Source: a virus. Taken from it: a stretch of 60,650 nt of DNA. A program made the translations under genes and the position numbers. The notes beneath the pieces are model-generated. The model was not told the DNA's origin. It searched no databases and was given only the letters and a program-made list of their open reading frames with translations. Location of the stretch: positions 1 through 60,650 of IMG/VR virus record IMGVR_UViG_3300006924_000018, one strand, 5' to 3'. Below are positions 242 to 24,083 of the stretch, piece by piece (the stretch's first letter is position 1; every line of letters starts with the position of its first letter).

Positions 242-607
242 ATGAGACTCCTGCTTGAGAACTGGAAGAAGTATCTGGATGAGAACATCTTCTATGTTAG
301 CATCGAAAAGCTTTTGCCCACTGAAGAGCTGGGTCACGGAAAAGATCACGATTGCCCAAGCAAGACCTGTGACGATATTATCCAACAAAAGATGGATTCT
401 ATGAAAGCTGGTGATATTAAGCCTATTGAAGTGTGCAACCAGAAGCCTGTTAACCCTTATAGGCTTCAGGGGCAGCCTTCAGCGCCCAAGACAGGTATGT
501 CAGAGCCATTTTACTACGTCTTGGACGGCCACCACAGACTAGAAGCCGCAAAGAGGCTTGGATTGGCCAAGATGCCTGTTTATTTGACACCAAAGGAAAC
601 AAAATGA
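242..607 (+). CDS. ParB-like nuclease-fold protein with N-terminal LLENW tag
   Basis: This 121-residue protein has a ParB/sulfiredoxin-type fold signature. A strand plus P-T motif lies near residues 18-27, a helix and 'KPIEV' strand near 50-64, and the diagnostic D-G-H-H-R at 95-99 is followed by 'LEAAKRLG'. In the ParB family this motif lies in the nucleotide-binding or nuclease pocket. Residues 1-14 are the LLENW-type tag ending in L-D-E, shared with four neighbours. The start at 242 is supported by the conserved tag. The stop overlaps the next start in ATGA. Family members can be CTPases, nucleases or small modification enzymes, and which applies here cannot be told. The tag suggests that it is packaged in the head and injected; that is inference. 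Confidence 0.75.
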   Translation: MRLLLENWKKYLDENIFYVSIEKLLPTEELGHGKDHDCPSKTCDDIIQQKMDSMKAGDIKPIEVCNQKPVNPYRLQGQPSAPKTGMSEPFYYVLDGHHRLEAAKRLGLAKMPVYLTPKETK

Positions 608-623
608 AACTCCTACTTGAAAA
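596..623 (+). repeat. Direct repeat copy 1 covering start and tag
   Basis: These 28 bases are identical to 1096-1123, exactly 500 bases downstream. The copy covers the end of one gene, the ribosome-binding region, the ATG and the first seven codons of the tag. Identity of the DNA, not only of the peptide, suggests recent duplication or recombination at this point. Confidence 0.9.
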
Positions 624-1107
624 CTGGAAGAAGTTTTTGAATGAAGAAAAAGAGTTCAAACAAGTTGATGACTATTACGAAATAGGAGTCTCCAAGTCTG
701 AATACCATCCAGCGTGGGATTATGAACCTAATGAGAGCCCTAGTCTTCTATCACAGGAGGCTTACGAAATGGCTTTTGATGCTGCTCAAGAACTTTCAAA
801 TAAACTTGGTTTAGGTCAAATAGCCTTATACTATGTTCAGGGAGAAAGTTTTGATAATCATCTTGCTCGTTACATCAATGGAACTTATAAGTCACCGGTA
901 ATAGTTTTGTCTGATAAGGTGGAGCAACAAGAAGAAGCCAAAATAACCCTGTTTCACGAACTGGGACACGCTTATGTAGAATCTATTGGTTTGGAGATTG
1001 ATGAAGAAGCAGAGGAGGATTTGGTGGAAGAGTTCGCACGACGCTACATACAAGATCCAGAATCAGGCTTGAACTACTTGAAGAACTTTGAAGGAGAAAC
1101 AAAATGA
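604..1107 (+). CDS. ImmA/IrrE-like zinc metallopeptidase with LLENW tag
   Basis: This 167-residue protein carries H-E-L-G-H at residues 118-122 in 'ITLFHELGHAYVE', followed by an acidic stretch and 'EEFARRY', where the third zinc ligand of this family (E-x-x-A-x-x-F-A) is expected. Small proteins of this layout belong to the ImmA/IrrE (M78) group, whose known members cleave repressors or regulators. Residues 1-14 form the tag ending in L-N-E. The gene overlaps its neighbours on both sides by ATGA and has the same leader DNA as the next gene. If the tag directs packaging, the protease would enter the host with the DNA and could cut a host regulator. The target is unknown. Confidence 0.78.
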   Translation: MKLLLENWKKFLNEEKEFKQVDDYYEIGVSKSEYHPAWDYEPNESPSLLSQEAYEMAFDAAQELSNKLGLGQIALYYVQGESFDNHLARYINGTYKSPVIVLSDKVEQQEEAKITLFHELGHAYVESIGLEIDEEAEEDLVEEFARRYIQDPESGLNYLKNFEGETK

Positions 1108-1123
1108 AACTCCTACTTGAAAA
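1096..1123 (+). repeat. Direct repeat copy 2 covering start and tag
   Basis: Identical over 28 bases to 596-623. It spans the end of the protease gene and the start and first seven codons of the kinase-like gene. Confidence 0.9.
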
Positions 1124-1805
1124 TTGGTTGAACTACCTAAACGAAGATGCAGGTGCTTCTATCCCTTGGCTTAAAGATCTAGAGGCCCTAGACGACCCGG
1201 CACTCACAGATGTAAGAAAAGCCTTCCCAGAGTGGGAGGTCTTGGGAGCCGGCTCTTATCGTGGCGTTATGGCCCCCAAGGGCGAGACTGATTATATTAT
1301 CAAGATTGTCCACGACAAGAGGGATGTTGAGCAAAACAAGGGCGAATATGAAGTTTCAAGAGACTTTCCTTCCCTATTCCCCAGAGTATATGCACATCAC
1401 CCTAACTTCAACTGGATTATTGCTGATCAGGTTGATGTAATTGACAGATTGAACACTAAATTCTTCCAAGCTTTCAAGGCTGCCTTCCCAAAGGTCACTG
1501 ATTATGCTATGGAAGTTGGTGTAGAAAACCCTATGTTTGTTTATTACGCTCTTCTCAGCGCTGCTGCTATCGGTTCAGATCCAGATTTGATCGCTGGTCT
1601 TGACACAATGCAGCAGATGATCGTTAAAAAGATTGGAATGGATAAGATCAGTAAGATTAGAGAGTTTGGCCTTAAGAATTCCGAGCCTTTCCAGAACTTT
1701 GCTAGTGCAATTGCAAAGTACGATATGAACATTTCGGATCTTACAGTAGGAAATATCGGAATTAATAGCGATGGTAAGTGGATTATCATCGACGCAGCCA
1801 TCTAG
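1104..1805 (+). CDS. Protein-kinase-like protein with LLENW tag, short C-lobe
   Basis: In this 233-residue protein the tag (1-14, ending L-N-E) is followed by a kinase-fold pattern. It has a glycine-rich loop G-A-G-S-Y-R-G at 48-54, a lysine in 'YIIKIVH' at 67, a glutamate at 81 in the alpha-C position, and a hinge-like 'WIIADQV'. The catalytic-loop-like 'S-D-L-T-V-G-N' has D212 and N217, and D230 sits in 'IIDAAI', the DFG position. The spacing D+5=N matches kinases and aminoglycoside-phosphotransferase-like enzymes. The protein ends three residues after the DFG-like aspartate, so the activation segment and the rest of the C-lobe are absent. The next gene does not supply them. An injected kinase is plausible, but activity is uncertain. 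Confidence 0.65.
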   Translation: MKLLLENWLNYLNEDAGASIPWLKDLEALDDPALTDVRKAFPEWEVLGAGSYRGVMAPKGETDYIIKIVHDKRDVEQNKGEYEVSRDFPSLFPRVYAHHPNFNWIIADQVDVIDRLNTKFFQAFKAAFPKVTDYAMEVGVENPMFVYYALLSAAAIGSDPDLIAGLDTMQQMIVKKIGMDKISKIREFGLKNSEPFQNFASAIAKYDMNISDLTVGNIGINSDGKWIIIDAAI

Positions 1806-1816
1806 GGAGCATCAAA

Positions 1817-3106
1817 ATGCCATTTCATAATGAATTCAGAGAGTGGGCTTCGCTGCAGGAGGCCCTTGAATTGCTCGAAGAGGGCGTCGAGAACCTTGGA
1901 ATCCCCGAAGAGTCTCTTAAATATGTCGAGGGCCTAGGCGCTTTGGACGACCTGCCGAAGAAAGAGAAGGCTTGGCTGCTCAGTTTGGCCACTAAACTGG
2001 CATTTATTTCCACTCCAGTGCTAAATGGCGAAGTAAAAATCCCTTTTTTCCTTGGCGTCGACGGTATGTTGAAGACGCTTGTTCGAGGGGACATCATTGA
2101 CGCCTCACAATCATACAATATTCGTAGTATGGTCGCCGACCAAATCCTAGAGCTTACATCTGGCTCTGGCGCAACAGCAGGAATTGTTGGCCTTAAGGCT
2201 ATCAAGCGGCTCGCAAAGTCCATCAAAGGAATTATGGGCAAGGTTGTGCCCCGCGAGGTGGGATTTGATGTGAAATCAGTGCCTTTTTATGGCCAAGCCC
2301 TCGAAAGATGGGATCAAAAAATTGAACAAATGATTGGAATGAACTTGCTAGCTGCTCTTTCTAGGCTAACTCTTACCAATCAGGTGCTCCAATCCGACCA
2401 CCGTGTTCTACCTATGCTAGCAAAAGCGTTGGCAGAGCCTATTTCGAGCGTAAAAACAACTGAAGATGTCGAAAAATTCGAAGAAATTGCAGCAGAAGCC
2501 TCTACAAAGGCGCTGAACCAGATCAAAAAGAAAGAAAGAGGCGAAACTGTCATTAAAAACCCTGATGGTTCATACTGGCAGGACCTCAAAACCACTTCTT
2601 GCCCTATTGAAGCTGCTCGTATGTCGCATTGCGGAAAAGAAGACGACCCAGAAGACGGAGTTTCACTTTATTCTCTCCGTATTAAGGGCGAAGATGACGA
2701 AAATTCAAAGTCTTTGGTCACGATTTCATTCAATAAGGGAACGAAGACGGTTTACCAAATCAAAGGATACAGAATTATTGACGGTGCGAAGATGGGTAAC
2801 CACGCTCCACCGGAAACTTTTGAATTTCAAGGCAAGGAATACAACCTTTGGGACAATATTGTTAACTTTTTTAAGAAAATGGGTGTCGAATACAACCTTG
2901 AAGCTGGTGCCTACTCACAGTATGGCAGCGCTTTTGAAGAGATGACCAATTACATCGATAGCTTGACCGGCGTCGTAACTGGTAAGAGACCAGAAACTGA
3001 CCTACAGTCTATGTTTGCTAACGACGAAGAGCGCTTTGGACCCGGAAACATCAATGAATCAACACAAGACTTGCTTCGATTGGCCGGGATAACAAGAAAA
3101 CATTAA
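1817..3106 (+). CDS. Phage protein with PcfJ-like Cys/His segment
   Basis: I start it at the ATG at 1817 because AGGGAG lies just upstream. A longer in-frame start at 1778 would run back into the preceding gene. That gives 429 residues. The N-terminus 'FREWASLQEA' is aromatic and ends in L-Q-E-A, so it may be a divergent packaging tag. Residues about 20-240 are mostly helical with no family I recognise. From about 250 the pattern W-x-x-L-x5-C-x3-A-x2-M-x-H-C-G (H271, C272, G273), then 'LYSLRIKGED', 'SLVTISF' and 'VYQIKGY', resembles the C-terminal domain of PcfJ-like proteins. Function is unknown. A sigma-70-like promoter follows it. Confidence 0.55.
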   Translation: MPFHNEFREWASLQEALELLEEGVENLGIPEESLKYVEGLGALDDLPKKEKAWLLSLATKLAFISTPVLNGEVKIPFFLGVDGMLKTLVRGDIIDASQSYNIRSMVADQILELTSGSGATAGIVGLKAIKRLAKSIKGIMGKVVPREVGFDVKSVPFYGQALERWDQKIEQMIGMNLLAALSRLTLTNQVLQSDHRVLPMLAKALAEPISSVKTTEDVEKFEEIAAEASTKALNQIKKKERGETVIKNPDGSYWQDLKTTSCPIEAARMSHCGKEDDPEDGVSLYSLRIKGEDDENSKSLVTISFNKGTKTVYQIKGYRIIDGAKMGNHAPPETFEFQGKEYNLWDNIVNFFKKMGVEYNLEAGAYSQYGSAFEEMTNYIDSLTGVVTGKRPETDLQSMFANDEERFGPGNINESTQDLLRLAGITRKH

Positions 3107-3113
3107 AAACTTC

Positions 3114-3142
3114 TTGTAAAGTTTCGTAAAACTAGTTATATT
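3114..3142 (+). promoter_or_regulatory. Sigma-70-like promoter plus ACTAGTTATA
   Basis: TTGTAA (3114-3119) is separated by 17 bases from TATATT (3137-3142). An ACTAGTTATA variant of the recurring junction element overlaps it at 3131-3140, 34 bases before the ATG at 3165. It lies in a 58-base gap between genes. Host polymerase use is inferred from the consensus match. Confidence 0.5.
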
Positions 3143-3164
3143 TGTATGAAATGGAGCTAATGTT

Positions 3165-3728
3165 ATGCGTAGACTTATGGAAAGCTGGGGTCGCTTCGTA
3201 AATGAAGCCGCAGACAGCGGTTTGACTTCTGTAGAGATCACAGAAATGGTAAAAAGTGGTATTCTTGAGCTCGTCAGCGGCCAACTTGACGGCCCTGCAC
3301 TCGAAGATGCCTTTCTTAAGTTCCGTGCGAACCTAATTGGTGAGCGAATCACTGCTGAAGAGTTCTCTGCGGCTTGCGACGACGCTATGAAGATGATTTC
3401 TATCTCAGCCGTCCCTAATAACCTTGACGGAAAGCTTGAGCGTATCGCAGATGTATGCCAACAGTTCTCTGAAGAGGGTCCAGTTGAAGAGATGAACTAC
3501 CGCCAAGAGCCTGAATTGCCTAATGTTGGCAATGATATGAATAAATTGTATTCTTTGGCCGCTGAACTGGCTGAAGTTGACCTCGCAACAGTTATGAAGG
3601 TCGACAATTCTATCCAAGAAGCCTTTGCAGAGCTTCAGGAGGCCGGTGAGCTTATGGATTACACCAGTCCCGAGGCACTTATGCACGCTGCGTCTATGAT
3701 GGGCGAGATTCAGGAAGAAGAGAAGTGA
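3165..3728 (+). CDS. Helical protein with LLENW-type tag
   Basis: The first 14 residues of this 187-residue protein, M-R-R-L-M-E-S-W-G-R-F-V-N-E followed by A-A, are the tag in its most T4-like form, with V-N-E then Ala as at a gp21 cleavage site. The rest is acidic and helical, with no family that I recognise ('LAAELAEVDLATVMKV', 'ALMHAASMMGEIQEEEK'). It has no cysteine-rich motif or enzyme signature beyond two scattered Cys. It could be a structural internal head protein or a scaffold-like component instead of an enzyme. It has its own promoter at 3114-3142 and overlaps the next gene by GTGA. Confidence 0.7.
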   Translation: MRRLMESWGRFVNEAADSGLTSVEITEMVKSGILELVSGQLDGPALEDAFLKFRANLIGERITAEEFSAACDDAMKMISISAVPNNLDGKLERIADVCQQFSEEGPVEEMNYRQEPELPNVGNDMNKLYSLAAELAEVDLATVMKVDNSIQEAFAELQEAGELMDYTSPEALMHAASMMGEIQEEEK

Positions 3729-4021
3729 AAAAGCTTCTTGAAAACTGGAACAGTTTTGTATCAGAAGCAAATGAGCAGGAAGAACTTGTAGAATACGTTG
3801 TTCCTGTTGGCTATTCGCTCGAAAGATGGCAAGCAAAGCGCAAGGAAGACAAGATTACCAACGCTGATTGGCATAAAGATCACCCTGAAGCCCGTTGGAA
3901 AGTCGTACACGGCCACAAGAAGGGCGAGATCGGCGATCCTGTCAACGATAAGGCAAAGAATATGTCTTACGAAGATGCAAACAAAATGCACTCTGCTATT
4001 GCAATTAGTCAGGGCGCATAA
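3725..4021 (+). CDS. Small protein with LLENW tag
   Basis: This 98-residue protein starts at GTG (3725), overlapping the TGA of the gene before it, with AGGAAGAAGAG upstream. The start is fixed by the tag M-K-K-L-L-E-N-W-N-S-F-V-S-E, followed by A. The remainder is basic and polar ('GYSLERWQAKRKEDKITNADWHKDHPEARWKVVHGHKKGEI') with several His and Trp residues, and ends in a helix 'YEDANKMHSAIAI'. I do not recognise a family. A basic small internal head protein that binds DNA is one possibility. Confidence 0.7.
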   Translation: MKKLLENWNSFVSEANEQEELVEYVVPVGYSLERWQAKRKEDKITNADWHKDHPEARWKVVHGHKKGEIGDPVNDKAKNMSYEDANKMHSAIAISQGA

Positions 4022-4054: not shown

Positions 4055-4888
4055 ATGAATGTCCGAAGCCTAGGCGACAAACTAGCGCGTGCTGTTGTGG
4101 CGGAACTATCCAAATCACGCCCTCTCAGCGGAGAAAAGACGCAGAAACTAAAGAAGTTTGTTCAAGAAGAGATGGTTCAGGCCATCCTCGGAAAGATTGA
4201 GAGCCTTCGAAGCCTAAAGGAAAATAAAATGAAGATCACAAAGACACAACTTAAGAATATTATTGCCGAAGAGATCAATCGTGCCCTCAATGAAGGCCGT
4301 GGCTTCGAGGAGCGCCGTGACAACGCTCTCTACTATGCTTATGCGTCTACACAAAGGGGCGTGTACCCAGAGAAGGTAGCTGACTTGTTCGATATGGCTC
4401 TCGACAAGGCCATCGAAGCCGGTGGTGTCTCTAGCGAGACCGAGGAGAGTCGTGATGTCTTTATTGACATTGAAGATGAGATTAAGAAGGCCGAGGGCGT
4501 TGGTAGAGAAAATATTGCAAAAGTTCTTATGGCCCTTAATACTCTTGACGGTATGTCTGTCGATCAGCTAAAAGCAATTCCTCGTAGTGACGAGGCTGCA
4601 AAGGCTGCCGAGAAGAGGGCACAGCCTGAAATCAAGCGCAAGCGCGCAGTACAGGCCAAGAGATCAATTAGGGACATTATGGGTAAGCTTGATGAAGGTA
4701 TGGATATTATGTCAATGATGTCGATGCCACTAGATCAAGTCGCTGGTATGCTAGATGTAGCCCCAGCTGTACTCGCAGGCGTTCTCGCTACTCTCGCAGG
4801 TAAGAGCGGTGGCCTTCCAAATATGGAAAACGCTGAAGAGAAAGAAACTGAAGACGTAATGGAGATCCCCCGCATCAAGCGAGGCTGA
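4055..4888 (+). CDS. Helical protein with internal second tag and in-frame start
   Basis: The full frame gives 277 residues from ATG 4055, which follows AGGGG. Residues 1-58 are basic and helical and include 'KKFVQEE'. At residue 59 a second ATG (4229) is preceded by AAAGGA at a good distance. From there the protein begins M-K-I-T-K-T-Q-L-K-N-I-I-A-E-E, the same N-terminal segment as the gene at 6544. So either two products are made from one frame, or the short form (219 residues) is the main one. The rest is charged and helical, with a Met-rich stretch 'MDIMSMMSMPLDQVAGML' and a basic C-terminus. Probably a head-internal or structural protein; function unknown. Confidence 0.6.
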   Translation: MNVRSLGDKLARAVVAELSKSRPLSGEKTQKLKKFVQEEMVQAILGKIESLRSLKENKMKITKTQLKNIIAEEINRALNEGRGFEERRDNALYYAYASTQRGVYPEKVADLFDMALDKAIEAGGVSSETEESRDVFIDIEDEIKKAEGVGRENIAKVLMALNTLDGMSVDQLKAIPRSDEAAKAAEKRAQPEIKRKRAVQAKRSIRDIMGKLDEGMDIMSMMSMPLDQVAGMLDVAPAVLAGVLATLAGKSGGLPNMENAEEKETEDVMEIPRIKRG

Positions 4889-6543: not shown

Positions 6544-6945
6544 ATGCAGATCACAGAAAGCAAGCTACGCTCTATTATTATGGAAGAGTATGGCAGAGCA
6601 TCACGCGACCTTAAGATGGAAGCTGAAAAGGCTCGTATGAAAGATTCTGGTAAGGAAGTACACGTAGTTGCTGCAGATGGTCCCGGCGATCAAGCGGTTA
6701 TCGACAGAGACGGTGATGGCCCAGCCAAGCCAGAGATGGTCGATGAGAAGGATGTCGAAATCCTAAAAGAGGATGTAGACGTTCTTGAGGCCGCACACAG
6801 CGCACTTGTTGGCCTAATTAGCAACATCGAGAAGTCAGACTTTACACACAACAGCAACAAGCAAATTGCTCTCAGAGCGCTTGATATTGCTATGCAGACT
6901 CTCGGCACAGATATGCTAGGCGACAAGTTCGAAGACAAGATGTGA
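6544..6945 (+). CDS. Acidic protein with ITESKL-type N-terminal tag
   Basis: I start at ATG 6544, six bases after GAGG, because it places M-Q-I-T-E-S-K-L-R-S-I-I-M-E-E at the N-terminus, parallel to the internal start at 4229. A GTG at 6532 is in frame but lacks a site. The product has 133 residues. The tag ends in I-M-E-E, an I-x-E sequence like a gp21 cleavage site. The middle is acidic with 'DGPGDQAVIDRDGDGPAKP', and the end is helical. I do not recognise a family. It is likely a head-internal or structural protein coupled to the next gene. Confidence 0.65.
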   Translation: MQITESKLRSIIMEEYGRASRDLKMEAEKARMKDSGKEVHVVAADGPGDQAVIDRDGDGPAKPEMVDEKDVEILKEDVDVLEAAHSALVGLISNIEKSDFTHNSNKQIALRALDIAMQTLGTDMLGDKFEDKM

Positions 6946-6953
6946 GGCTGACT

Positions 6954-8288
6954 ATGAAGCCAGAAGAACTAGAAGAGCTAAACCTTCTTGACGAGAAGAA
7001 GAAAAAGAAGCAACAAAAGGGCAAGAAAAGAGCTCGTAAGGTTGCATCTCGTAAAAAGAAGAAGAAGGATGACCGTTGTACACGCATTGCTAAGCGAAAG
7101 TATGACGTCTGGCCTTCTGCGTATGCTTCTGGCGCTGTAGTTCAGTGTCGTCGTGGCAAGATTTGGAAGGGCCTCAAGGAAGAACAAGAAGGCCCTCTAG
7201 TGGCTGCAGAGGCAGTTATCCTAGATACTTTGAAGGTCGAGGGCGGCGCTGCCGGATTGGAGCCTCTAGAGAAGGCTGTTGAAGCCATAGAACTACCAGA
7301 GGATTTTAACCTAGTGGAGTTCCTTAAGTCTCTTGACTCTGTGGGACAGCACGAAGACGGCGACTATTACGCCGTTCAGGGACTAGAGCAAAACGTCAAA
7401 GAAAACACTGAGTATCAAGATCTTGTTATGCGGTTGGTTCTAGAAAAGCTAGAAACTATGCTAAAAGAAGACGACGACGAAGGTCTTGATAGGTGGTTTA
7501 AGCGCAAGGGGCCTCGCGGTAAGACCGGTGGATGGGTTGATTGTAATACCTGTCGGAAAAATAAAAAGACCGGTCGCACGGAGTGCAAGCAGTGCGGACG
7601 TGAAAAGGGAGAGAAGCGAGCGAAGTATCCTTCCTGCCGCCCTACGCCGGGTGCTTGCAAAGATAAGGGCAAAGGCACATCTTGGGGTAAAAAGTCCGCA
7701 AAGCGATCCAAGCGCAAAAAGAAGATGAAGGAAGCAAGAGACCAAGTTATTTCTATGCTACAAGAGCGCGTCTTTTTGCCCGGACTAAAAGAGCACGTTC
7801 AGAAAGGTATTCCAGTACACGAGAATTTCTATCGGGTTGGATCACCTTGTTTCTTTAATATGTTCAAGCAAGCTAGAGACGCCCACAAAGCGGGTCTCTA
7901 CAACACGGACAATGAAGATGAGCTCTACTACCTAAATGAGACCAACATTGGCGAGAAGGGCCTTTATGAGGGCGAGGAGGTTTATCTAGACTTCCCTTTC
8001 CTCAACGAAGCAGAATACCAAGGCAAAAAGGTTGAGCTTGGCAAGCCTAAGCGCGGTGGTTCCAAGAAGTTCTATGTTTACGTTAAGGACGGCGACAAAG
8101 TAAAGAAGGTCTCTTTCGGATCACCTGATATGCCGCTTCGTATTAGCAACGATAAAGCTAGGGCTTCTTTTGTGGCGCGTCACAATTGCAAGGAAAAGAA
8201 GCCAAGGACCTCCGCAGGCTACTGGTCTTGTAGAATTGGACGCTACCCACATCTTACTGGTGCCAAGAAGAAGTACACTTGGTGGTAA
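6954..8288 (+). CDS. Multi-module basic Cys-containing phage protein (DUF5872-like)
   Basis: ATG 6954 follows GAGG at six bases, giving 444 residues. It begins with a very basic stretch (about 16-45, many Lys). 'CTRIAKRKYDVWPSAYASGAVVQCRRG' follows, then an acidic linker, then 'WVDCNTCRKNK...CKQCGREK...YPSCRPTPGAC', both resembling DUF5872-type modules. 'GIPVHENFYRVGSPCFFNMFKQAR' to 'EVYLDFPF' is a third module, and 'FVARHNC...AGYWSCRIGRYPHL' near the end a fourth. I know these modules as separate segments in other marine phage proteins; that is from memory. The Cys pairs suggest zinc binding. 'F-L-N-E-A' near residue 351 could be a prohead-protease site. Likely a DNA-associated virion protein. 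Confidence 0.55.
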   Translation: MKPEELEELNLLDEKKKKKQQKGKKRARKVASRKKKKKDDRCTRIAKRKYDVWPSAYASGAVVQCRRGKIWKGLKEEQEGPLVAAEAVILDTLKVEGGAAGLEPLEKAVEAIELPEDFNLVEFLKSLDSVGQHEDGDYYAVQGLEQNVKENTEYQDLVMRLVLEKLETMLKEDDDEGLDRWFKRKGPRGKTGGWVDCNTCRKNKKTGRTECKQCGREKGEKRAKYPSCRPTPGACKDKGKGTSWGKKSAKRSKRKKKMKEARDQVISMLQERVFLPGLKEHVQKGIPVHENFYRVGSPCFFNMFKQARDAHKAGLYNTDNEDELYYLNETNIGEKGLYEGEEVYLDFPFLNEAEYQGKKVELGKPKRGGSKKFYVYVKDGDKVKKVSFGSPDMPLRISNDKARASFVARHNCKEKKPRTSAGYWSCRIGRYPHLTGAKKKYTWW

Positions 8289-12682: not shown

Positions 12683-14716
12683 ATGTTGAACCTTTTGCTT
12701 GAGGGCGGTGTAGCAGGCCATATGAGCCATCTATATGAAGACCCTTCTCTTACCTTTACCAAAATGAAAGAAATCCTTCTAGCGGCCTCACAGGGCTCAC
12801 TAGAGGGCACAGAGAAGGTCGACGGCCAGAATCTGTTCTTGTCCTATGATGTCAAGACCGGTAAGGCCAAAGCCGCTCGAAACAAAGGGAACATCAAGGC
12901 CGGAGGTCTTTCTGCGTCTGAGCTAGCTGCAAAGTTTGCTGGACGTGGAACTGTCGAGGTTGCTTTCAACGATGCTTTTGCAGCATTTGAAAAAGCAGTC
13001 GAGAAGTTCTCTGACGAGGAAAAGTTGGAGATCTTCGGCCCTGATACTAACATCTATTACAATGCCGAGATTCAAGACCCTAGAAACGCGAATCTCATCA
13101 ATTATGACTTCAAGGCACTAAAGATTCACCGAGACGGCCACGCCGAATTTGATCGTGAAACAGGTGCCCCCACAGGCAGGGACGTTAACACCGATATAGC
13201 TGCCATCCAGAGCGCACTTGAGAGAGTTCAAGATGAGCTTGAAGGTGAGCACCGTATTGAGATGAATGCTCTTCGCAAGCTTGTAAAGCTTGAGGATGAC
13301 AGTATTGTAGAAGATACTCTCGACCGCCTAGAAGCTGCACTTGATGCTGAAGGTATCAGCGACAACCAGACGGTTGGTGATTATCTAATTACAAGAATCT
13401 CAAATATGATCGACGCTGCTGTTGACGTAGATCGTGAAGCGAAAATCCTAATCATCAAGAAGATTATGGGGGTTAAGGGCTTGAACATTAATAAGATTCT
13501 TAAAATGGTCCCCGAGGATCAGGACAAGGCTGTTGTAAGGCAGATGGTCAAGATGTCAGCCGACATCAAGAAGAAGGCCATCCAACCAATCGAAGATATT
13601 ATTCACGATTTTGCTGTTGAGATGCTTTCTGTCTTTGAATCAGCATACGTTATCGACAATTCTGCGGAAGCAATGCGACTTCGTAAGGAAGTAGAGCAAG
13701 CAATTGATCAAATCAAGGCATCCGGTAACGAGGAAGCAAATGAAGTACTAGTACAGCAGTTGAGGAAGCTAGAAAAGCTAGACAAGACCTTGACTGCTGC
13801 TGAGGGCTTTGTGTTCATCTATGATGGTAAAACATACAAGCTAACCGGCAACTTTGCTCCTATCAATCAGATTCTTGGTCTCTTCAAGTATGGTCGTGGT
13901 AGTATTCCACCGGTTCAGAAAGTAAACGAACAAGACGAAGCTGAAAGATCTGGAAAGAAGAAGATCGGCATCTACGCTGGCCGGTTCCAACCTATGGGTC
14001 GTCACCACTATAATGCTTACAAGTCCATTGTTGACAGTGGCTTGGTCGACGATGTATATGTTGTGACAAGCGACAAGGTTCAACTTCCAAAGTCTCCATT
14101 CGACTTCAAAGAGAAAAAGCAGATTATTGCTGCTCACGGAGTACCGACTGATCGTATCGTAAAGGCCAAGAATCCATACAATGCTATGGAGATCGCCAAG
14201 AATATGGATCCTGAAGATGTTGAAATCGTGTACTTCGTTGGCGGTAAGGATATGGCTGAAAACCCAAGGTTCAGCAAGACCTCTGGTACAACAAAAGAAG
14301 GTTATGACTGGAGTTTGGCGATTACACCTTTTGGCTCTCTTGATATTGAGGGCCTAGGCCGTATGTCTGGTACTAGAATGCGCGAGCTTCTAGCCACTGG
14401 GGATATGGAGATTCTTAAAAAAGTGATGGGACCAGAATTCGACCTCAGTGTTGCTCCGCTAATTTTTAAGAAATTAAAAAAGTCAGAGCCAGTTTCAGAG
14501 AATATTAAAAAAGATTTTAAAAAAGAAGAGAATCTTAAAGAACTCGAAGACTTGTTTAAAGAAGTTTTTAATAAAAAGTTTAAGAATCAATTCATTGATC
14601 TGGATATGCTCCTAGGAGACGAAATGCCCCTAGAAGAGGAAGAAGAACTCGACGAAATGTCCGGTGCTGTCGGAGGAATGGGCTTTGCGGGTCCAGTGTC
14701 GGATGACAAGGAGTGA
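12683..14716 (+). CDS. Ligase-like nucleotidyltransferase fused to NMNAT-like domain
   Basis: This 677-residue protein has two enzyme-like parts. Residues about 1-400 carry E-K-V-D-G with K45 in the K-x-D-G motif I of the ligase/capping nucleotidyltransferase superfamily, 'YYNAEIQDPR' near 125, and E-G-F-V (374-377) followed by 'YKLTGN', fitting motifs IV and V. A helical insert separates them. Residues about 428-595 have G-R-F-Q-P-M-G-R-H-H (433-442) and 'MSGTRMREL' (561-569), the HIGH and ISTTxxR motifs of NMN or related adenylyl/cytidylyltransferases, but with the first His of HxGH replaced by Gly. The C-terminal 80 residues are charged. It could couple NAD metabolism to end-joining of nucleic acid. 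Substrate unknown. Confidence 0.65.
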   Translation: MLNLLLEGGVAGHMSHLYEDPSLTFTKMKEILLAASQGSLEGTEKVDGQNLFLSYDVKTGKAKAARNKGNIKAGGLSASELAAKFAGRGTVEVAFNDAFAAFEKAVEKFSDEEKLEIFGPDTNIYYNAEIQDPRNANLINYDFKALKIHRDGHAEFDRETGAPTGRDVNTDIAAIQSALERVQDELEGEHRIEMNALRKLVKLEDDSIVEDTLDRLEAALDAEGISDNQTVGDYLITRISNMIDAAVDVDREAKILIIKKIMGVKGLNINKILKMVPEDQDKAVVRQMVKMSADIKKKAIQPIEDIIHDFAVEMLSVFESAYVIDNSAEAMRLRKEVEQAIDQIKASGNEEANEVLVQQLRKLEKLDKTLTAAEGFVFIYDGKTYKLTGNFAPINQILGLFKYGRGSIPPVQKVNEQDEAERSGKKKIGIYAGRFQPMGRHHYNAYKSIVDSGLVDDVYVVTSDKVQLPKSPFDFKEKKQIIAAHGVPTDRIVKAKNPYNAMEIAKNMDPEDVEIVYFVGGKDMAENPRFSKTSGTTKEGYDWSLAITPFGSLDIEGLGRMSGTRMRELLATGDMEILKKVMGPEFDLSVAPLIFKKLKKSEPVSENIKKDFKKEENLKELEDLFKEVFNKKFKNQFIDLDMLLGDEMPLEEEEELDEMSGAVGGMGFAGPVSDDKE

Positions 14717-16823: not shown

Positions 16824-18179
16824 ATGGCAAAGAAGACTTACGTATTGGATACTAGTGTGTGTTTGTGTGACGCTGATAGCATTTACAGCTATGGAAACAA
16901 CGACATTCTCCTGCCTATTAAGGTACTAGAGGAAATCGACAAGCACAAGAAGCGCCAAGATGGCGTCGGTATGAACGCACGAACAATTATTCGTTATCTA
17001 GACGAACTACGAGCAAAGGGCAGCCTACAAAAAGGTGTAAGGATTGCAAAGGGCAAGGGCATCCTACGAGTCGCAGCCGACAGTATCGAAGACCTTCCAG
17101 CCGATCTAGATGCTAGTGTACCAGATCACAAGATTCTTTCAACAGCTTTGGCAGAAGACCGAACAAATGGAAGTCGTAAAACAATCCTAGTGTCAAGAGA
17201 CATCAACTTGCGCGTCATTTCAGATGCGGTTGGTCTATTGTCCGAGGACTACATTGAGAATCAAATCCTCAAGCGCTCCGAGGGCCTTTACAAAGGCTTT
17301 AAGACAATCTTGGTAGACGAGCAGGTAATTGATTCACACTACGCTGGAGAGGCCGTTTACCTCGACGAGGAAGAGGTTGACAAACTCTTTATAAATGAAT
17401 TCGTTATGTTGGTATCAAATTACAACGATAAAAAGTCTGCTCTTGCAAGATATGTCGGCCCGCACAGTCCACTTCTATCCCTACAGGAGTTCAAGCGCGG
17501 CCTCTGGGGCGTTCACGCTCGCAACAAAGAGCAGCTATTCGCACTCAACCTACTAATGGACCCAAGCGTCCAGATTGTTTCACTTGTCGGCAAGGCAGGA
17601 TCTGGTAAGACCCTCATTTCTATTGCTGCTGGTCTAGAGCAGGTAATTTCAAATCCTAGTATTATGGATATGGCAAATGGCAAGCATCGCGGCGAAGGCT
17701 TGTACAAGAAGCTAGTAGTATCACGACCAGTTATGCCTATGGGTAAAGATATTGGCTTCTTGCCGGGTACAATGGAAGAAAAGATGGCCCCGTGGCTAGC
17801 ACCTGTACAGGATAATCTTAAGTTCCTTACTGGTAACGACCAGACCACACTACAGCAGTATATGGATAAGGGTGTTATCGAGATGGAGGCACTTACATAT
17901 ATCCGTGGCCGCTCAATTGCCAATGCTTTTATTGTCATCGACGAGGCACAGAACTTGACACAGCACGAGATCAAGACAATCCTAACTCGCGTTGGCGAAG
18001 GTACAAAGATCGTCCTAACTGGTGACGTAGAACAGATTGACAACATTTACATCAATGAGCGCTCATCTGGCCTTACACACGCCGTTGAGAGATTTAAGCA
18101 GCACCCTATTGCTGGCCACATTACCCTACGAAAGGGTGAACGTTCAGAGGTCGCATCACTCGCTGCCAAGGTACTATGA
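16824..18179 (+). CDS. phoH: PIN-PhoH protein (PhoH-like ATPase with RNase domain)
   Basis: This 451-residue protein has an N-terminal PIN domain ('YVLDTSVCLCDADSI' with the first Asp, then 'LPIKVLEEIDKHK', 'DHKILSTALAE', 'VSRDINLRV'). A PhoH P-loop ATPase follows: Walker A G-K-A-G-S-G-K-T (about 256-263), 'VSRPVMPMGKDIGFLPGT', Walker B I-V-I-D-E-A-Q-N (about 370-377), and 'LTGDVEQID'. This is the PhoH2 architecture, described as an RNA helicase with RNase activity. PhoH genes are common in marine phages. AGGAG precedes the ATG. It is followed at once by a small gene whose ribosome-binding site overlaps its stop. Confidence 0.92.
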   Translation: MAKKTYVLDTSVCLCDADSIYSYGNNDILLPIKVLEEIDKHKKRQDGVGMNARTIIRYLDELRAKGSLQKGVRIAKGKGILRVAADSIEDLPADLDASVPDHKILSTALAEDRTNGSRKTILVSRDINLRVISDAVGLLSEDYIENQILKRSEGLYKGFKTILVDEQVIDSHYAGEAVYLDEEEVDKLFINEFVMLVSNYNDKKSALARYVGPHSPLLSLQEFKRGLWGVHARNKEQLFALNLLMDPSVQIVSLVGKAGSGKTLISIAAGLEQVISNPSIMDMANGKHRGEGLYKKLVVSRPVMPMGKDIGFLPGTMEEKMAPWLAPVQDNLKFLTGNDQTTLQQYMDKGVIEMEALTYIRGRSIANAFIVIDEAQNLTQHEIKTILTRVGEGTKIVLTGDVEQIDNIYINERSSGLTHAVERFKQHPIAGHITLRKGERSEVASLAAKVL

Positions 18180-18186
18180 GGATACT

Positions 18187-18480
18187 ATGTTAAACGAAGA
18201 AGACGTAATCAACCAAGATTTGTACAGTACTGTCGAGGCCGATACCGGCCTCAAGGCACTAGTTACAGAGTATGTCGGCAATCGACTGCTACCGGTAGAC
18301 AATCAAGTTACACTTGATATGGTCATCGAAGTCTTTGCTACTGAGTTCCCTGAGTTCCTATTGCCAGTCGCGGAAGAGAATTTTATTCGTGGCTACAAGC
18401 AGGCGATGAACGACTTGGACAACAGCAAAGATATTTTCGCTGGCCTAGAGGATTTTGTTAATGCCATTACGGAAGAGTGA
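18187..18480 (+). CDS. Small acidic protein of unknown function
   Basis: I use ATG 18187, preceded by GAGG overlapping the phoH stop; the frame is open back into phoH but no site supports an earlier start. The product has 97 residues, acidic and helical ('MVIEVFATEFPEFLLPVAEENFIRGYKQAMNDLDNSK'). The tail 'FVNAITEE' is acidic. No family recognised. Coupling to phoH suggests a shared time of expression. Confidence 0.65.
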   Translation: MLNEEDVINQDLYSTVEADTGLKALVTEYVGNRLLPVDNQVTLDMVIEVFATEFPEFLLPVAEENFIRGYKQAMNDLDNSKDIFAGLEDFVNAITEE

Positions 18481-18853
18481 AATTAGAGAGACTGGCGAAG
18501 GTCAGGTCGAGGTTGTAGTCGAATACGAGATCCGAAGGGTCTTCCACAAGCGACAAGGCATCCCGGTAATGATTTTTAAAGATTCTGATGCTATTGAGCT
18601 ATTGGAATCTGCTGGCTATGATAAGTATAAATTGACCACCGATGGCGTAGTAGCCTCTAACTCCATCAGATTTCCACAAGTAGCAGTTTGGAAATTTGCA
18701 AAAGTTCTTGACACTCCAAAAAAGAAGAGGTACAATAGATCACGTAAGAAGAAAGTAACTCCTTCTCTTACTGATCTGGAGGAGTCGTGCGAGAACACAT
18801 CTCATTCTCCGAGTTCAAGCTCTGGTCAGAGTGTACTTGGAGACACAAACTAA
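18461..18853 (+). CDS. Basic small protein of unknown function
   Basis: The start at ATG 18461 overlaps the preceding gene by 20 bases and is preceded by AGAGG at eight bases. It gives 130 residues. The centre 'EYEIRRVFHKRQGIPVMIFKDSDAIELLESAGYDKYKL' suggests an alpha/beta fold. 'KKKRYNRSRKKKV' is a strongly basic patch for nucleic-acid binding, and the C-terminal 25 residues are Ser-rich and encoded in the overlap with the nuclease gene. No family recognised. Its position between phoH and a Cas4-like nuclease fits a nucleic-acid role. Confidence 0.55.
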   Translation: MPLRKSEIRETGEGQVEVVVEYEIRRVFHKRQGIPVMIFKDSDAIELLESAGYDKYKLTTDGVVASNSIRFPQVAVWKFAKVLDTPKKKRYNRSRKKKVTPSLTDLEESCENTSHSPSSSSGQSVLGDTN

Positions 18854-19551
18854 AGTACATCGAAGGTCTTGATGGTTTTACCGGCAACGCTTTTACAGCG
18901 TTCGGCTCTGCCATCCACTCTGCTTGCGAAGAGATCGCAGTAAAGAACCTCGAAGGCATCGAAGAGAAGTTTGAAAAGTTTTTCGACAACGAGATCGAAG
19001 AGCTTGAAGAGGTCACTGACCGTGACCGCAAACTTCTCACAGAGATGAGAGATCAAGGAAAGAATATCCTTCCACACGTTTTGGTTGAGCTGGAGAAGCA
19101 GTTCCCAAATTTTGAACTTGTTGCGGTGGAAGAGGATTTGTTCGAAGAATTCGAGGAAGGTGGCCTTAAGTTTAAGGGCTATATTGACCTCGTTCTTAAG
19201 TCGGAAGACGGTAAGTACCACATTATTGACTGGAAATCTTGCTCTTGGGGCTGGGATGCCCGCAAGAAGGCAGACAAGATTCTGGGCTACCAGCTAGTCT
19301 TCTATAAGTGGTTCTGGGCTAGGAAGCACGATGTACCTCTAGAGAACATCGAGACCCACTTCGGACTTCTAAAAAGAACAGCAAAGAAAAATAACGTTGA
19401 GATCTTCAGGGTCACCAGTGGCCAGAAAAAGGTCGACAATGCGTTGACTGCACTTAAGAATGCAGTTATAAATATTAAGAGACAAAGGTTCATCAAGAAC
19501 CGCCTGTCTTGCAAGTATTGTCCTTTTTATAGGACTGAACATTGTAGGTGA
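18787..19551 (+). CDS. PD-(D/E)xK nuclease, Cas4/RecB-like
   Basis: GTG 18787 is chosen because GGAGGAG lies just upstream and the protein then begins with the conserved 'SFSEFKLWSECTWRHKLKY'. It overlaps the gene before by 67 bases. The 254 residues include 'FGSAIHSACEE', 'FKGYIDLVLK' with the active-site Asp, and 'HIIDWKSC' (D-x-K). C16 together with C242, C245 and C253 matches the four-cysteine iron-sulfur cluster of Cas4/AddB nucleases. Such enzymes resect DNA ends. In phages they support recombination or DNA degradation. Confidence 0.8.
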   Translation: MREHISFSEFKLWSECTWRHKLKYIEGLDGFTGNAFTAFGSAIHSACEEIAVKNLEGIEEKFEKFFDNEIEELEEVTDRDRKLLTEMRDQGKNILPHVLVELEKQFPNFELVAVEEDLFEEFEEGGLKFKGYIDLVLKSEDGKYHIIDWKSCSWGWDARKKADKILGYQLVFYKWFWARKHDVPLENIETHFGLLKRTAKKNNVEIFRVTSGQKKVDNALTALKNAVINIKRQRFIKNRLSCKYCPFYRTEHCR

Positions 19552-19559
19552 GGAATTAA

Positions 19560-20828
19560 ATGACAACAGATAAGAAGACAAAAGTATTTGTGATTTCCGA
19601 TCACCCATTCGCTCCTTCTGGAGTTGGCACACAGACGCGCTACATCATCGAATCGCTACTAGAGACTGGCCGATACCAGTTCGTATGCTTTGGTGGAGCA
19701 GTGTCTCATCGTGACTACTCCCCGCAGAAGACCGAGCAGTGGGGCGACGATTTGATCGTATACCCAGTTCAAGGCTACGGAACACAAGAGCAGGTCCGCT
19801 CTTTGCTAATGCAGCAGCGCCCTGATATTCTATGGTTTATGACCGACCCCCGCTTTTATCAGTGGTTGTGGGATATGGAGAACGAAGTTCGTGTACACAT
19901 CCCTATGGTCTACTATCACGTTTGGGACAACTTCCCAGCACCAACATTCAACCGCTCATACTATGAGTCAACTGATGTTATCGCAACTATCTCAAAGGTA
20001 ACAGATGAGATTGTAAAGCAGGTAGCGCCTTCAGTTGAGCGCCACTACCTACCACACGCAGTAGATATGAATGTATTCAAGCCAGCAGAGGAGCACCAGC
20101 GCCTCGCATTGCGTCAGCAGCAGTTTGGCCCTGATTCCGAAGACAAGTTTATTTGCTTCTGGAATAATCGAAATGCACGTCGAAAGATGTCAGGCTCTTT
20201 GGTATTTTGGTTCCACGAGTGGGCACAAAAGGTTGGCACCGATAATGTCAAGCTCGTTATGCACACTGATCCAAAGGACTCAAACGGTCAAGACCTAGAA
20301 GCTATTGTACACGAACTTGATGCCACAGGCGGACACATTGTTTTCTCAAAGAGCAAGGTAGAGCCACAGCACTTGGCAGCTATGTACAATATTTCAGACG
20401 TAACAATTAACATCTCAGATGCTGAAGGCTTCGGCCTAGCGACTCTAGAGTCACTTTCTTGCGGAACACCAATCATCGTAAATATGACTGGCGGACTACA
20501 GGAGCAGGTCACAGATGGTGACGAGTGGTTTGGTATTGGTATCGAGCCTTCGTCTCGCGCCGTTATTGGGTCACAGCAGGTGCCCTTTATTTATGAAGAC
20601 CGAATCTCCAAGGAAGATTTTCACGCGGCTCTAGACCGTATGTATGAGCTTTCTAGAGAGGAAAGAGGGGAGCTTGGCGCCAAGGGTCGCAATCACATTG
20701 AGAAGAATTATAACTTCGAGACTTTCAAGACCCGTTGGATTGAGCTTATGGACTCCATTCACGAGCGATATGGCTCTTGGGAGAATAGAAAGGGCTACTC
20801 CCCTTGGGAACTAAAGGAGATTAAGTGA
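19560..20828 (+). CDS. GT4-type glycosyltransferase
   Basis: This 422-residue protein has the GT-B fold. The start 'KVFVISDHPFAPSGVGTQTRYIIESLL' is the glycine-rich N-terminal loop of GT4 enzymes. The C-terminal domain has 'FICFWNNRNARRKMSG' and the E-x7-E donor site in 'DAEGFGLATLESLSCGTPII'. It transfers a sugar from a nucleotide donor. No membrane segment. First of six genes packed with overlaps or gaps under ten bases to 25735. Acceptor unknown: DNA base, virion protein or host surface glycan. Confidence 0.85.
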   Translation: MTTDKKTKVFVISDHPFAPSGVGTQTRYIIESLLETGRYQFVCFGGAVSHRDYSPQKTEQWGDDLIVYPVQGYGTQEQVRSLLMQQRPDILWFMTDPRFYQWLWDMENEVRVHIPMVYYHVWDNFPAPTFNRSYYESTDVIATISKVTDEIVKQVAPSVERHYLPHAVDMNVFKPAEEHQRLALRQQQFGPDSEDKFICFWNNRNARRKMSGSLVFWFHEWAQKVGTDNVKLVMHTDPKDSNGQDLEAIVHELDATGGHIVFSKSKVEPQHLAAMYNISDVTINISDAEGFGLATLESLSCGTPIIVNMTGGLQEQVTDGDEWFGIGIEPSSRAVIGSQQVPFIYEDRISKEDFHAALDRMYELSREERGELGAKGRNHIEKNYNFETFKTRWIELMDSIHERYGSWENRKGYSPWELKEIK

Positions 20829-22054
20829 TGAAGAGAATTATTTTTAGAGGCCCTTGCCTCTCACAGTCCGGCTACGGTGAGCACGCTCGTATGGTTTTGC
20901 GCGCTCTCCGCACTCGCGAAGAAGAACTAGACATCGCTATTATCCCTGTTGGTTGGGGTCAGACAGGCTGGGTAACAGACCCTTCTGAGTTCCGCGCTTG
21001 GATGGACGCTGCGATCCTAAAGGGCCAGCAGTACATTCAGCAGAAGGTTCCTTTTGATATTTCAATTCAGGTTGCAATCCCCGGCGAATTTGAGCGTCTA
21101 GCTCCTGTTAACATCGGGGTTACAGCGGGTATCGAGACAACTAAGATGTCACCAGACTGGGTGCAGAAGTCTAATATGATGGACAAGATCATTACTATCT
21201 CAGAGCACGCCAAGTGGTCTTTTGAGAACACCTCATACGAAGGTAAGGACCAGTTCGGTAATGATGTCACGCTAAAGATAACAGCCCCTGTAGAAGTAGT
21301 TGGATACCCAGTCCGAGACATCACGCCGGACGAGAGCTTTAGCCTAGACCTTGAAACAGATTTCAACTACCTAGCAGTCGGCCAGTGGGGTCCACGAAAG
21401 AACCTCGCTAGCCTAATCACTTGGTGGCTGCAGGAATGCTGGGATCAGCCAGTTGGCCTCGTACTCAAGACAAGTACAAGAAGAAATAATGTTATGGATC
21501 GCAACTTCACACAGCAGCGCCTCCAGAACATCGTAGATTCTGTTAAGCTTGACGAATCCGAGCGTCAATGCAAGGTGTACCTCCTACACGGAGACCTCTC
21601 CGAGCCAGAGATGCAAGCACTATATGCCAATGATAAGATTTCCTGTATGATCACAACAACTCACGGCGAAGGCTTTGGCCTTCCTATGTTTGAGTTTGCA
21701 CAGCACGGAAAGCCAATCATTGCTCCAGAGTGGTCAGGTCACCTAGACTTCCTCACCAATGCCAAGCGCAAGCCCGGATTTATGCCAGTGAGATATACAC
21801 TAGCACAGATTCAGCCACAGGCAGTAGTTGAGAATATGCTAATTCCAGAATCACAGTGGTGCTACGCCGAGGAAGCCTCTTTTAAGCAGCGCCTACGACA
21901 GGTCAAGAAGAGCGATAAGTGGTCTAAGCGCGCAGCAGAGCACGTAGATTACATCCTTGAGCAGTTCGACGCAGACAGGATCAACAATATGTTCTGCGAC
22001 GCAGTTCTAGGTAGCCAAGAGGCAACTGAAGATGAATATGAAATCATTCTTTGA
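20828..22054 (+). CDS. GT4-like glycosyltransferase
   Basis: I choose ATG 20828, eight bases after AGGAG, over the GTG at 20825; it overlaps the preceding TGA. The 408 residues again show a GT-B fold: 'RGPCLSQSGYGEHARMVLRAL' at the N-terminus, 'YLAVGQWGPRKNLASLI' in the linker, and 'TTHGEGFGLPMFEFAQHGKPIIAP' as the donor-binding site. It is related in layout to the gene before but not a close copy. 'SGHLDFLT' follows the donor motif. Confidence 0.82.
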   Translation: MKRIIFRGPCLSQSGYGEHARMVLRALRTREEELDIAIIPVGWGQTGWVTDPSEFRAWMDAAILKGQQYIQQKVPFDISIQVAIPGEFERLAPVNIGVTAGIETTKMSPDWVQKSNMMDKIITISEHAKWSFENTSYEGKDQFGNDVTLKITAPVEVVGYPVRDITPDESFSLDLETDFNYLAVGQWGPRKNLASLITWWLQECWDQPVGLVLKTSTRRNNVMDRNFTQQRLQNIVDSVKLDESERQCKVYLLHGDLSEPEMQALYANDKISCMITTTHGEGFGLPMFEFAQHGKPIIAPEWSGHLDFLTNAKRKPGFMPVRYTLAQIQPQAVVENMLIPESQWCYAEEASFKQRLRQVKKSDKWSKRAAEHVDYILEQFDADRINNMFCDAVLGSQEATEDEYEIIL

Positions 22055-23066
22055 GTGTAGCTTTTTCAAGTCTCCCCCGCAGCGAGAAGGCAGTTTTGTC
22101 GTCAAGCAGGGGGAGCTTGCTATCAAGGACTTCAATCCATCAGATGCAAGGCACAAGTTTCAGAAGCAGGAGATTAAATACTCCTGCTTTTGGCTTAAGC
22201 AAGAAAACTGGGATTCCTCGAAGCCAGCAATCATTATCCCGATCAAGGATAACAACAAGCTTTTGAAGATTACCTGCGACAACCTTATCGAGACGCAGGT
22301 TGCATCTGTAGCTAACGTAATCATTGTTGACGACCGGTCAGAAGAAGACATCAAGTCGACTGCTATTTCAAGCGGCTTTTCATATCTTCGAGTGGACAAT
22401 GATAAGGGCTTTAATTTTTCGATGCTTAACAACATCGCAGCAAAGCTATGTGATGACAATGGCGTAAAAACTATTGTTCTTTGGAACTCTGATCTTTGGG
22501 CTAGAAGTAAAGAAGACTTCACTAGCCTTTTGGGGAAGCACAGAGAGTCAGGTAGCAAGCTTTCGGGGACCAAGTTGGTATACCCGCCAGCAGCTATGAG
22601 TCTAAATAAGGAAGTCGACACTGATAATATCAAGACTTTCTTTCCGAATATGACAGACGGGCGCTGGCGAGAGACTGTGCAATTTGGTGGAGATACGTGG
22701 GTACCACACCCACAAGGCTGGGGGCCAAACCATTTCAAGCGTTTCGCACAGCCAGAAAATCCATACGTAGATTGTGACAGAGGATGCTCTTTCATTACAG
22801 GGGCACTTCAGGTTTGGGACCTTCAATATTTTAAAAAACTCGGTGGACTCAATCCGAGTATGGCCAAGCAACATCAAGATGTCGACCTTTGCCTTAAGGC
22901 AATCAAATCCGGCATTGTACCGATGTATTTTGGCAAAGACAGAATGTTTTACCACGATGAATCTGCCATTCTTATGAAGGAAGGCAAAAATGACTTGCAA
23001 ACAGTCAGCGATTCTGTTATATTTTACAAAACTTGGAACGAAAAGATTCCACAATTAGTTTTTTAG
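22032..23066 (+). CDS. GT2-type glycosyltransferase
   Basis: This 344-residue protein starts at ATG 22032, overlapping the preceding gene by 23 bases; an in-frame ATG at 22038 is equally possible. After about 55 unusual residues it has 'KPAIIIPIKDNNKLLKITCDNLI', 'VIIVDDRSEED', then 'NDKGFNFSMLNN', 'LWNSDLW' at the D-x-D position, and 'GCSFITGALQVWDLQYFKKLGGLNPSM...QDVDLCLKA'. This is the GT-A fold of family 2, usually metal-dependent. Cytoplasmic. Confidence 0.8.
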   Translation: MNMKSFFECSFFKSPPQREGSFVVKQGELAIKDFNPSDARHKFQKQEIKYSCFWLKQENWDSSKPAIIIPIKDNNKLLKITCDNLIETQVASVANVIIVDDRSEEDIKSTAISSGFSYLRVDNDKGFNFSMLNNIAAKLCDDNGVKTIVLWNSDLWARSKEDFTSLLGKHRESGSKLSGTKLVYPPAAMSLNKEVDTDNIKTFFPNMTDGRWRETVQFGGDTWVPHPQGWGPNHFKRFAQPENPYVDCDRGCSFITGALQVWDLQYFKKLGGLNPSMAKQHQDVDLCLKAIKSGIVPMYFGKDRMFYHDESAILMKEGKNDLQTVSDSVIFYKTWNEKIPQLVF

Positions 23067-23075
23067 GAGTTAATC

Positions 23076-24077
23076 GTGGCAGAAACAGTATTGATCACAG
23101 GTGGTGCCGGATTTATCGGTCATCACCTTATTTATCGTATGCTAAACGACACTGATTACAATGTGGTAATCCTTGATCGCCTAGATACGTCTGGAAACCT
23201 TAACCGTGTACACGAGGTTCTTGAGCTCGATAGTTCATATCGATCCCGAGTTAAGTTTGTGTGGCACGACCTTAAGGCTCCAATCAACGAAGTACTAGCA
23301 AAGCAGATTGGCGATGTACATTATGTATTTCACCTCGCAGCTGGTTCGCACGTTGATCGCTCTATTGAGTACCCTCTAGAATTTGTTCTAGACAACGTAG
23401 TAGGTACAACAAACCTACTCGATTATGCGAGAACACACATTCGCGACACTATGAAGTTGTTCCTATACTTCTCCACCGATGAAGTGTTCGGCCCAGCACC
23501 AGAAGGCGTTTTGTACAAGGAGTGGGATCGCTACAATTCAGGCAATCCTTACTCTGCATCAAAGGCCGGTGCAGAGGAGATGTGCTTGGCGTACTGCAAC
23601 ACATACCGTATGCCCATCATCATTACGCACACAATGAATGTTTTTGGTATCCGTCAGCACCCAGAGAAGTACATTCCACTTCTCATCCAAAAGGTCCGTG
23701 ACGGCGAGAAGGTAACAATTCATTCAAACCCATCAAAGACAAAGGCTGGCAGCCGCTTCTACATTAACACAGAAGACGTCGCATCAGCTATGATGTTCCT
23801 AATGGACAATCACAAGATTGGTGACAAGTACAACATTGTTGGCGAGCGAGAGATGGATAATCTTGAGCTAGCACAGACAGTCGCATCCATTATGGGCAAG
23901 CCACTCAATTACGAGATGGTAGATTTTCACTCTTCACGTCCGGGCCACGACCTACGTTATGCGCTCTGCGGCGAGAAGATGGAAAAGATGGGCTGGGTAC
24001 CAGAGCAGTCAGTCACAGAGCGTCTACGCGAAGTAATTGATTGGTCACTACAAAATAATCATTGGCTACTTAAGTGA
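23076..24077 (+). CDS. NAD-dependent sugar-nucleotide 4,6-dehydratase, RmlB-like
   Basis: This 333-residue protein starts at GTG 23076 with TAGGAG upstream. It has the Rossmann motif T-G-G-A-G-F-I-G, 'HLAAGSHVDRSI', 'YFSTDEVFGP' with the T-D-E triad of 4,6-dehydratases, and Y-S-A-S-K (Y-x-x-x-K) as catalytic pair. 'HTMNVFGIRQHPEKYIP' and 'GSRFYINTEDVASAM' are family substrate-binding strands. It makes a 4-keto-6-deoxy sugar nucleotide from an NDP-hexose. It lies among glycosyltransferases, which indicates that the phage makes its own donor sugar. Confidence 0.85.
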   Translation: MAETVLITGGAGFIGHHLIYRMLNDTDYNVVILDRLDTSGNLNRVHEVLELDSSYRSRVKFVWHDLKAPINEVLAKQIGDVHYVFHLAAGSHVDRSIEYPLEFVLDNVVGTTNLLDYARTHIRDTMKLFLYFSTDEVFGPAPEGVLYKEWDRYNSGNPYSASKAGAEEMCLAYCNTYRMPIIITHTMNVFGIRQHPEKYIPLLIQKVRDGEKVTIHSNPSKTKAGSRFYINTEDVASAMMFLMDNHKIGDKYNIVGEREMDNLELAQTVASIMGKPLNYEMVDFHSSRPGHDLRYALCGEKMEKMGWVPEQSVTERLREVIDWSLQNNHWLLK

Positions 24078-24083
24078 GGTAAC

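Follow-up and report, generated by a model that had tools for sequence, protein, structure and literature searches.

In phage T4, the first ten residues of the internal protein IPIII suffice for entry into the head, with residues 4 and 7 of this capsid-targeting sequence (CTS) serving targeting and residues 8 and 10 serving processing, and the protease gp21 cuts after L/I-x-E (PMC9026906). Processing is not confined to the start of a protein, as Alt is processed at both ends (PMC9026906). All three T4 internal proteins inhibit GmrSD restriction enzymes (PMC12373910). Here we analyse a 60,650-base virus record (the window, meaning this whole stretch of DNA) in which otherwise unrelated genes open with one of two short peptides, and compare these peptides with the T4 system.

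Tagged genes in the window

A first-pass annotation had proposed that five genes of the window share one N-terminal motif. The open reading frames were confirmed, and the motif is present at residue 1 in 5/5 (genes 242, 604, 1104, 3165 and 3725, named by their first base; Table 1). We refer to this motif as tag A. The proposed contents of the five genes also stood: a ParB-like protein (ParB/sulfiredoxin fold), an ImmA-like protease (ImmA/IrrE-like, with HELGH present and a score below the Pfam cut-off), a kinase-like protein (resembling APH/PRPK kinases in a low-confidence model) and two unknowns for which Pfam gave no family assignment. Overlooked at that stage were a second peptide, MKITKxxLKxIIKEE (tag B), at 4229 and 6544, and a gene without a clear tag at 1817–3106 inside the cluster. 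Genes 604, 1104 and 3725 each overlap the preceding neighbour by 4 bases, an operon-like arrangement. The DNA pattern of the tag core occurs in the window record at exactly the five tag-A starts, all on the + strand, and nowhere on the − strand.

Table 1 Tagged genes of the window and neighbouring genes discussed with them.
Position	Strand	Feature	Evidence
242..607	+	Tag A (MRLLLENWKKYLDE) and ParB/sulfiredoxin-fold body	ORF, fold comparison
604..1107	+	Tag A (MKLLLENWKKFLNE) and ImmA/IrrE-like metallopeptidase	ORF, Pfam below cut-off, HELGH
1104..1805	+	Tag A (MKLLLENWLNYLNE) and kinase-like protein, APH/PRPK type fold	ORF, low-confidence model
1817..3106	+	No clear tag; gene within the tagged cluster	
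3165..3728	+	Tag A (MRRLMESWGRFVNE) and body without known family	ORF, Pfam
3725..4021	+	Tag A (MKKLLENWNSFVSE) and body without known family, GTG start	ORF, Pfam
4229..4888	+	Tag B (MKITKTQLKNIIAEE) and body of unknown family	
6544..6945	+	Tag B (MQITESKLRSIIMEE) and body of unknown family	
6942..8288	+	No clear tag; domains common to tag-A protein L046 and tag-B protein L123	
8577..8996	+	Untagged here; homologues L046, L082, L060 and G003 have tag A	

Among homologues of gene 242, the tag is kept in 7/9, two of these seven being without L-x-E. Gene 1104 has three tagged homologues, and a further viral scan gave no homologue of it.

Elsewhere in the window, a 677-aa protein (12683–14716) starts with MLNLLLEGGVAGHM, and similar EGG-AGH-like starts recur in relatives; in L021 such a start directly follows tag A. 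The region 19560–25735 holds a cluster of genes that, judged by eye, resemble glycosyltransferases and a sugar epimerase; the cluster is partly kept in relatives.

Occurrence of the tags beyond chance

Weight models of the two tags were applied to 2,928 predicted proteins, with thresholds of at least 8 bits (tag A) and at least 12 bits (tag B). Nearly all matches lay within the first 30 residues (249/257 for tag A and 143/152 for tag B), while shuffled proteins gave one tag-A and two tag-B matches with the same models. A reversed-sequence control, drawn from seven T4-like records and the window, gave no match. At the DNA level, a pattern for M-K-x-[LF]-[LF]-E-N-W was found in at least 120 stretches of the viral collection, and among the matches listed, 160 of 170 open a frame of at least 45 codons. 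The weight-model results together with the shuffled and reversed controls rule out chance as the source of the shared starts. Ordinary paralogy was also ruled out, as the tagged bodies align without any invariant column.

A swapped pattern, LLNEW, matched 39 times in the whole collection. It was rejected as a clean negative control, as about a dozen of these matches are a real variant tag (MKKLLNEWxxFLxE); many others are repeats of one gene and lie within a longer frame. One gene with the variant tag (L270 2442–3137) has a body homologous to part of a giant Elemovirus protein (NC_055852 50563–61647), which is annotated as structural and with DUF3293.

A short tblastn search of the tag against isolated phages returned nothing useful, and no convincing tag A was seen in six phage records that are close by gp23, including the isolates Mel-JY01, immuto and RM378. 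Flavobacterium phage immuto (MW353176), which carries gp21 and gp23, has four genes (1812, 103774, 117599 and 118597) that share another start, F[DN]L[KR]xFLxEN, and this peptide has the same L-x-E geometry.

Unrelated bodies behind the tags

A search for the tag in relatives had been suggested as a check on whether it marks many unrelated domains, and it does, with about 90 body clusters behind tag A. In contigs of uncultured marine viruses we counted 186 tag-A genes in 90 body clusters and 125 tag-B genes in 95, six clusters occurring with both tags. Pfam domains behind tag A alone include DUF192, PGDYG, guanylate kinase, NUDIX, tRNA-ligase-type phosphodiesterase, HAD, 5'-nucleotidase, AAA_33, zeta toxin, SET, amidase, protein kinase, metallopeptidase, GNAT and CPT. 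Tag-A bodies are mostly enzyme-like, and they vary from phage to phage. The bodies behind tag B are for the most part small and lack known domains, the only recognised ones being TseH-like and DUF3008. Most tagged proteins are small and apparently single-domain; a minority are fusions.

Geometry of the putative cleavage site

When T4 CTS positions 4, 7, 8 and 10 are transferred by spacing, they fall on W8, F/Y11, L12 (the L/I position) and E14 of tag A and on L8, I11, I12 and E14 of tag B; counted back from the Glu, both tags have hydrophobic residues at the T4 CTS places. Beyond this geometry there is no sequence identity between the tags and the T4 CTS, and both length and residues differ, so the initial statement that the tag has the same length as its T4 counterpart was incorrect (14 residues vs 10).

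For 142 tag-A starts that were chosen without regard to residues 9–20, [LIVM]xE was present within residues 10–20 in 131, against a background of 23% in other proteins. Of the 29 starts that lack E14, 20 still have the motif but at a different spacing (p about 2e-7), as in MKLLFENWRKYLLTEA and MKKLFENWREFELLKEA; such conservation is difficult to account for if L-x-E is not an independent site. The further suggestion that Ala often follows holds for genes 3165 and 3725, but not in the wider set, where Ala accounts for 11% and Glu is commonest at 21%.

The tag helix is amphipathic (mean hydrophobic moment 0.55 vs 0.27). In models of the proteins from genes 242 and 1104, it is predicted as a short helix outside the domain, with very low confidence (mean pLDDT over residues 1–10 of 48 and 33, respectively). 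The packaging reading would have been refuted had the tag belonged to the folded domain in each of the five families; the models suggest otherwise for the two proteins that were modelled.

As a control in T4 itself, the CTS pattern found ipII and ipIII and, beyond these, only gp61.1. This hypothetical protein (NC_000866 18966–19130) starts with MKTFKEFIKE, near the CTS of ipII and ipIII, and judging by that start it may be an unrecognised internal protein.

Tagged genomes and head genes

Near-complete genomes carry 15–27 tagged genes each (G017, 15; G018, 16; G003, 15; G021, 27; G010, 21). A T4-type gp21 prohead protease was found in 10/10 tagged records of at least 174 kb and gp23 in 9/9 tested tagged records of that size, and an untagged 229-kb record from the control scan is without gp21. 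Most tagged records of 100–125 kb also lack gp21, an absence that says little because these records are probably fragments. Neither gp21 nor gp23 is present in the window record, a fragment that stops short of where its relatives have the head operon, and the head genes of its phage are inferred from synteny. Five of the large genomes are largely colinear with the window from its position at about 9.5 kb through to its end. In G017, counting onward from the homologue of the last window gene, terminase follows after about 14 kb and gp21 after about 20 kb. All five have a tag cluster at the matching place, just before the homologue of window gene 9550.

This 30-kb island holds most of the tagged genes and lies away from the head operon (59/254 genes tagged, vs 7/273 in the tail region). 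Compared with the tail region, the head operon shows a borderline excess of tagged genes (p = 0.055). Four tagged genes lie beside gp21 (G017:122477, G018:154705, G018:155128 and G021:16921), the first of which has tag A at its start and tag B at its end. We considered whether the slot after gp21 holds one protein family with swapped tags, and rejected this.

The major capsid protein gp23 itself begins with MKEL[LF]ENW in three records (G034, L044 and L077). Most other gp23 proteins have only a looser LLxKW element in common, and for the majority of gp23 propeptides the weight model gave no significant link to tag A, so we treat copying of the gp23 propeptide by the tag as a lead and not a result. 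In L228 (LR756508, a 484-kb uncultured phage; 756–2832 and 17745–23624), several genes adjoining gp23 open with tag-B-like peptides, and the same record encodes a family of similar proteins with short CTS-like starts, such as MKLKGILKEA.

Tag exchange, internal copies and shared DNA

Homologous bodies can carry either tag, with tag A in L019 and L121 vs tag B in L098, in L046 vs L123, and in L099 vs G021:123029; homologous bodies without a clear tag are found in window genes 6942 and 8577. Tags also occur inside proteins (L083, L068 and G003:11642) and, for tag A, at the very C-terminus (G010:74956–76791, 611 aa; L059:9854–11626, 590 aa). A C-terminal tag ending at the Glu could still target its protein, but could not be removed by a cut after that residue. 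In L239, a single frame with several domains includes a homologue of gene 604 (55% identity), and the junctions on both sides of that domain, GQQKESIQN[TI]LR[QR]MIKEE, are tag-B-like.

As many as 23 unrelated body clusters, including four in G017, have one and the same 24-nt gene start (ATGAAACTCCTACTTGAAAATTGG); in the window, gene 1104 matches it exactly and gene 604 is one base off. Synonymous sites of tag A are conserved to about codon 10 (up to 1.0 bit per site in codons 3–6 and 9–10) and are at background thereafter, where F/Y-L-x-E is still conserved as protein: codons 11–14 keep their residues with a codon choice near background. The leucines at positions 3–5 favour CTC, CTA and CTT, although these make up 9, 13 and 21%, respectively, of all Leu codons. 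The simplest reading of these patterns is a 5' cassette that spreads by recombination, joined to a putative cleavage site under protein-level selection, although the first ten codons could still have a role at the nucleotide level.

Discussion

We consider it likely that the tags are capsid-targeting propeptides for the cargo of T4-like phages, while recognising that no virion or cleavage data exist and that docking, cleavage, packaging and injection are all inferred, the last three from T4. The short amphipathic N-terminal helix would dock a protein into the prohead core, gp21 would cut after [LIV]-x-E during head maturation to leave the bare enzyme in the head, and the enzyme would enter the next host with the DNA, there probably disarming defences and redirecting metabolism. 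Tag B, having the same geometry, would do the same job, and both tags would pass from gene to gene in the form of short DNA cassettes. Support for head packaging is good but inferential, and we judge packaging itself somewhat more likely than the injection of working effectors. The first-pass annotation's reading of the tag is supported, as those of its predictions that sequence can address all came out in favour; presence in virions, cleavage and injection remain inference. Counted against the model are the window and many fragments without gp21 and gp23, the lack of gp21 in most tagged records of 100–125 kb, the two gene 242 homologues without L-x-E, the unmatched majority of gp23 propeptides, the borderline head-operon enrichment and the unremovable C-terminal tags. 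A more ambitious form of the model is a real possibility, though one we hold only tentatively: the two interchangeable tags would constitute a plug-in loading system, in which a 5' cassette of about 30 nt, copying the start of the gp23 propeptide, recombines onto genes and turns their products into injected cargo, amounting to 15–27 proteins per phage and including fusions split at tag-like sites.

Tagged proteins might instead enter the prohead core and be cut by gp21, yet act there as core filler or assembly factors, or be degraded, and never be injected as effectors. The tagged genes adjoining gp21 in the head operon and the mostly small, domain-free tag-B bodies would fit such a role, which we nevertheless think unlikely, considering that tag-A bodies are mostly enzyme-like and variable across phages, that most of these bodies are encoded in the island, at a distance from the head operon, and that the CTS-bearing internal proteins of T4 are injected and block restriction enzymes (PMC12373910). 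The tag could also direct proteins elsewhere, to the tail tube or baseplate, the membrane or a replication compartment; there are no localisation data, and an N-terminal amphipathic helix with a moment such as this one is a general targeting device. However, another destination would not explain why L-x-E is conserved separately, why the geometry matches that of the T4 CTS, why the tag is linked with gp21 or why gp23 opens with it in three records, and we rate it as decidedly improbable.

The DNA-level conservation raises a different alternative, that the 5' conservation reflects a DNA or RNA element (in translation or recombination, for instance), with the peptide as a by-product. Synonymous conservation, the skewed Leu codons and the single 24-nt start common to unrelated bodies speak for such an element. 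It would not account for codons 11–14, where residues are kept without unusual codon choice, for the in-frame shifts of L-x-E, for tags that recur within and at the end of proteins, or for the replacement of tag A by tag B, whose DNA is different, and we see very little room for it as the whole explanation.

If the capsid-targeting reading is true, the proteins that a large group of marine T4-like phages injects could be listed by a short sequence search; for most of these proteins no role is known, and the search would also point to many candidate anti-defence enzymes. The natural variants of the two tags would show what a capsid-targeting signal requires, and the suggested way in which phages recruit cargo would be for a gene to acquire a short DNA cassette at its 5' end.

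Comparison with known systems

Our literature search, limited to open-licence papers, found no description of tags A or B. Polyvalent proteins of phages and plasmids, as far as the parts of the source available to us go (Iyer et al, 2017; PMC5512222), have overlapping domains (ParB-like and metallopeptidase) and are predicted to be packaged and injected, and some tagged proteins are likewise multi-domain. However, polyvalent proteins combine several effector domains in one polypeptide, whereas tagged genes mostly encode one domain, each with its own tag, and no such tag is described in those parts. The giant phages phiKZ and SPN3US, whose ejection proteins are cut by distant gp21 relatives, also package many proteins in the head and process them after Glu; the portions of the sources available to us report no comparable short shared N-terminal tag (PMC9026906, PMC10052503), and the tagged genomes, unlike these phages, have the T4 types of gp21 and gp23.

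The closest counterpart is the CTS of the T4 internal proteins (IPI, IPII and IPIII) and of Alt, which gp21 cuts. Both systems place a short N-terminal peptide on otherwise unrelated proteins, both have the hydrophobic-x-x-hydrophobic-[LI]-x-E geometry, the tagged genomes encode T4-type gp21 and gp23, and the cargo of T4 relatives is also variable (PMC9026906). The tagged phages differ in having a longer tag (14 residues rather than 10), two interchangeable tags, 15–27 tagged genes per genome where T4 has few, an enzyme-rich cargo, internal and C-terminal copies, tag-like fusion junctions and conservation of the tag at the DNA level. The tags described here are best filed as a far larger variant of the T4 internal-protein system.
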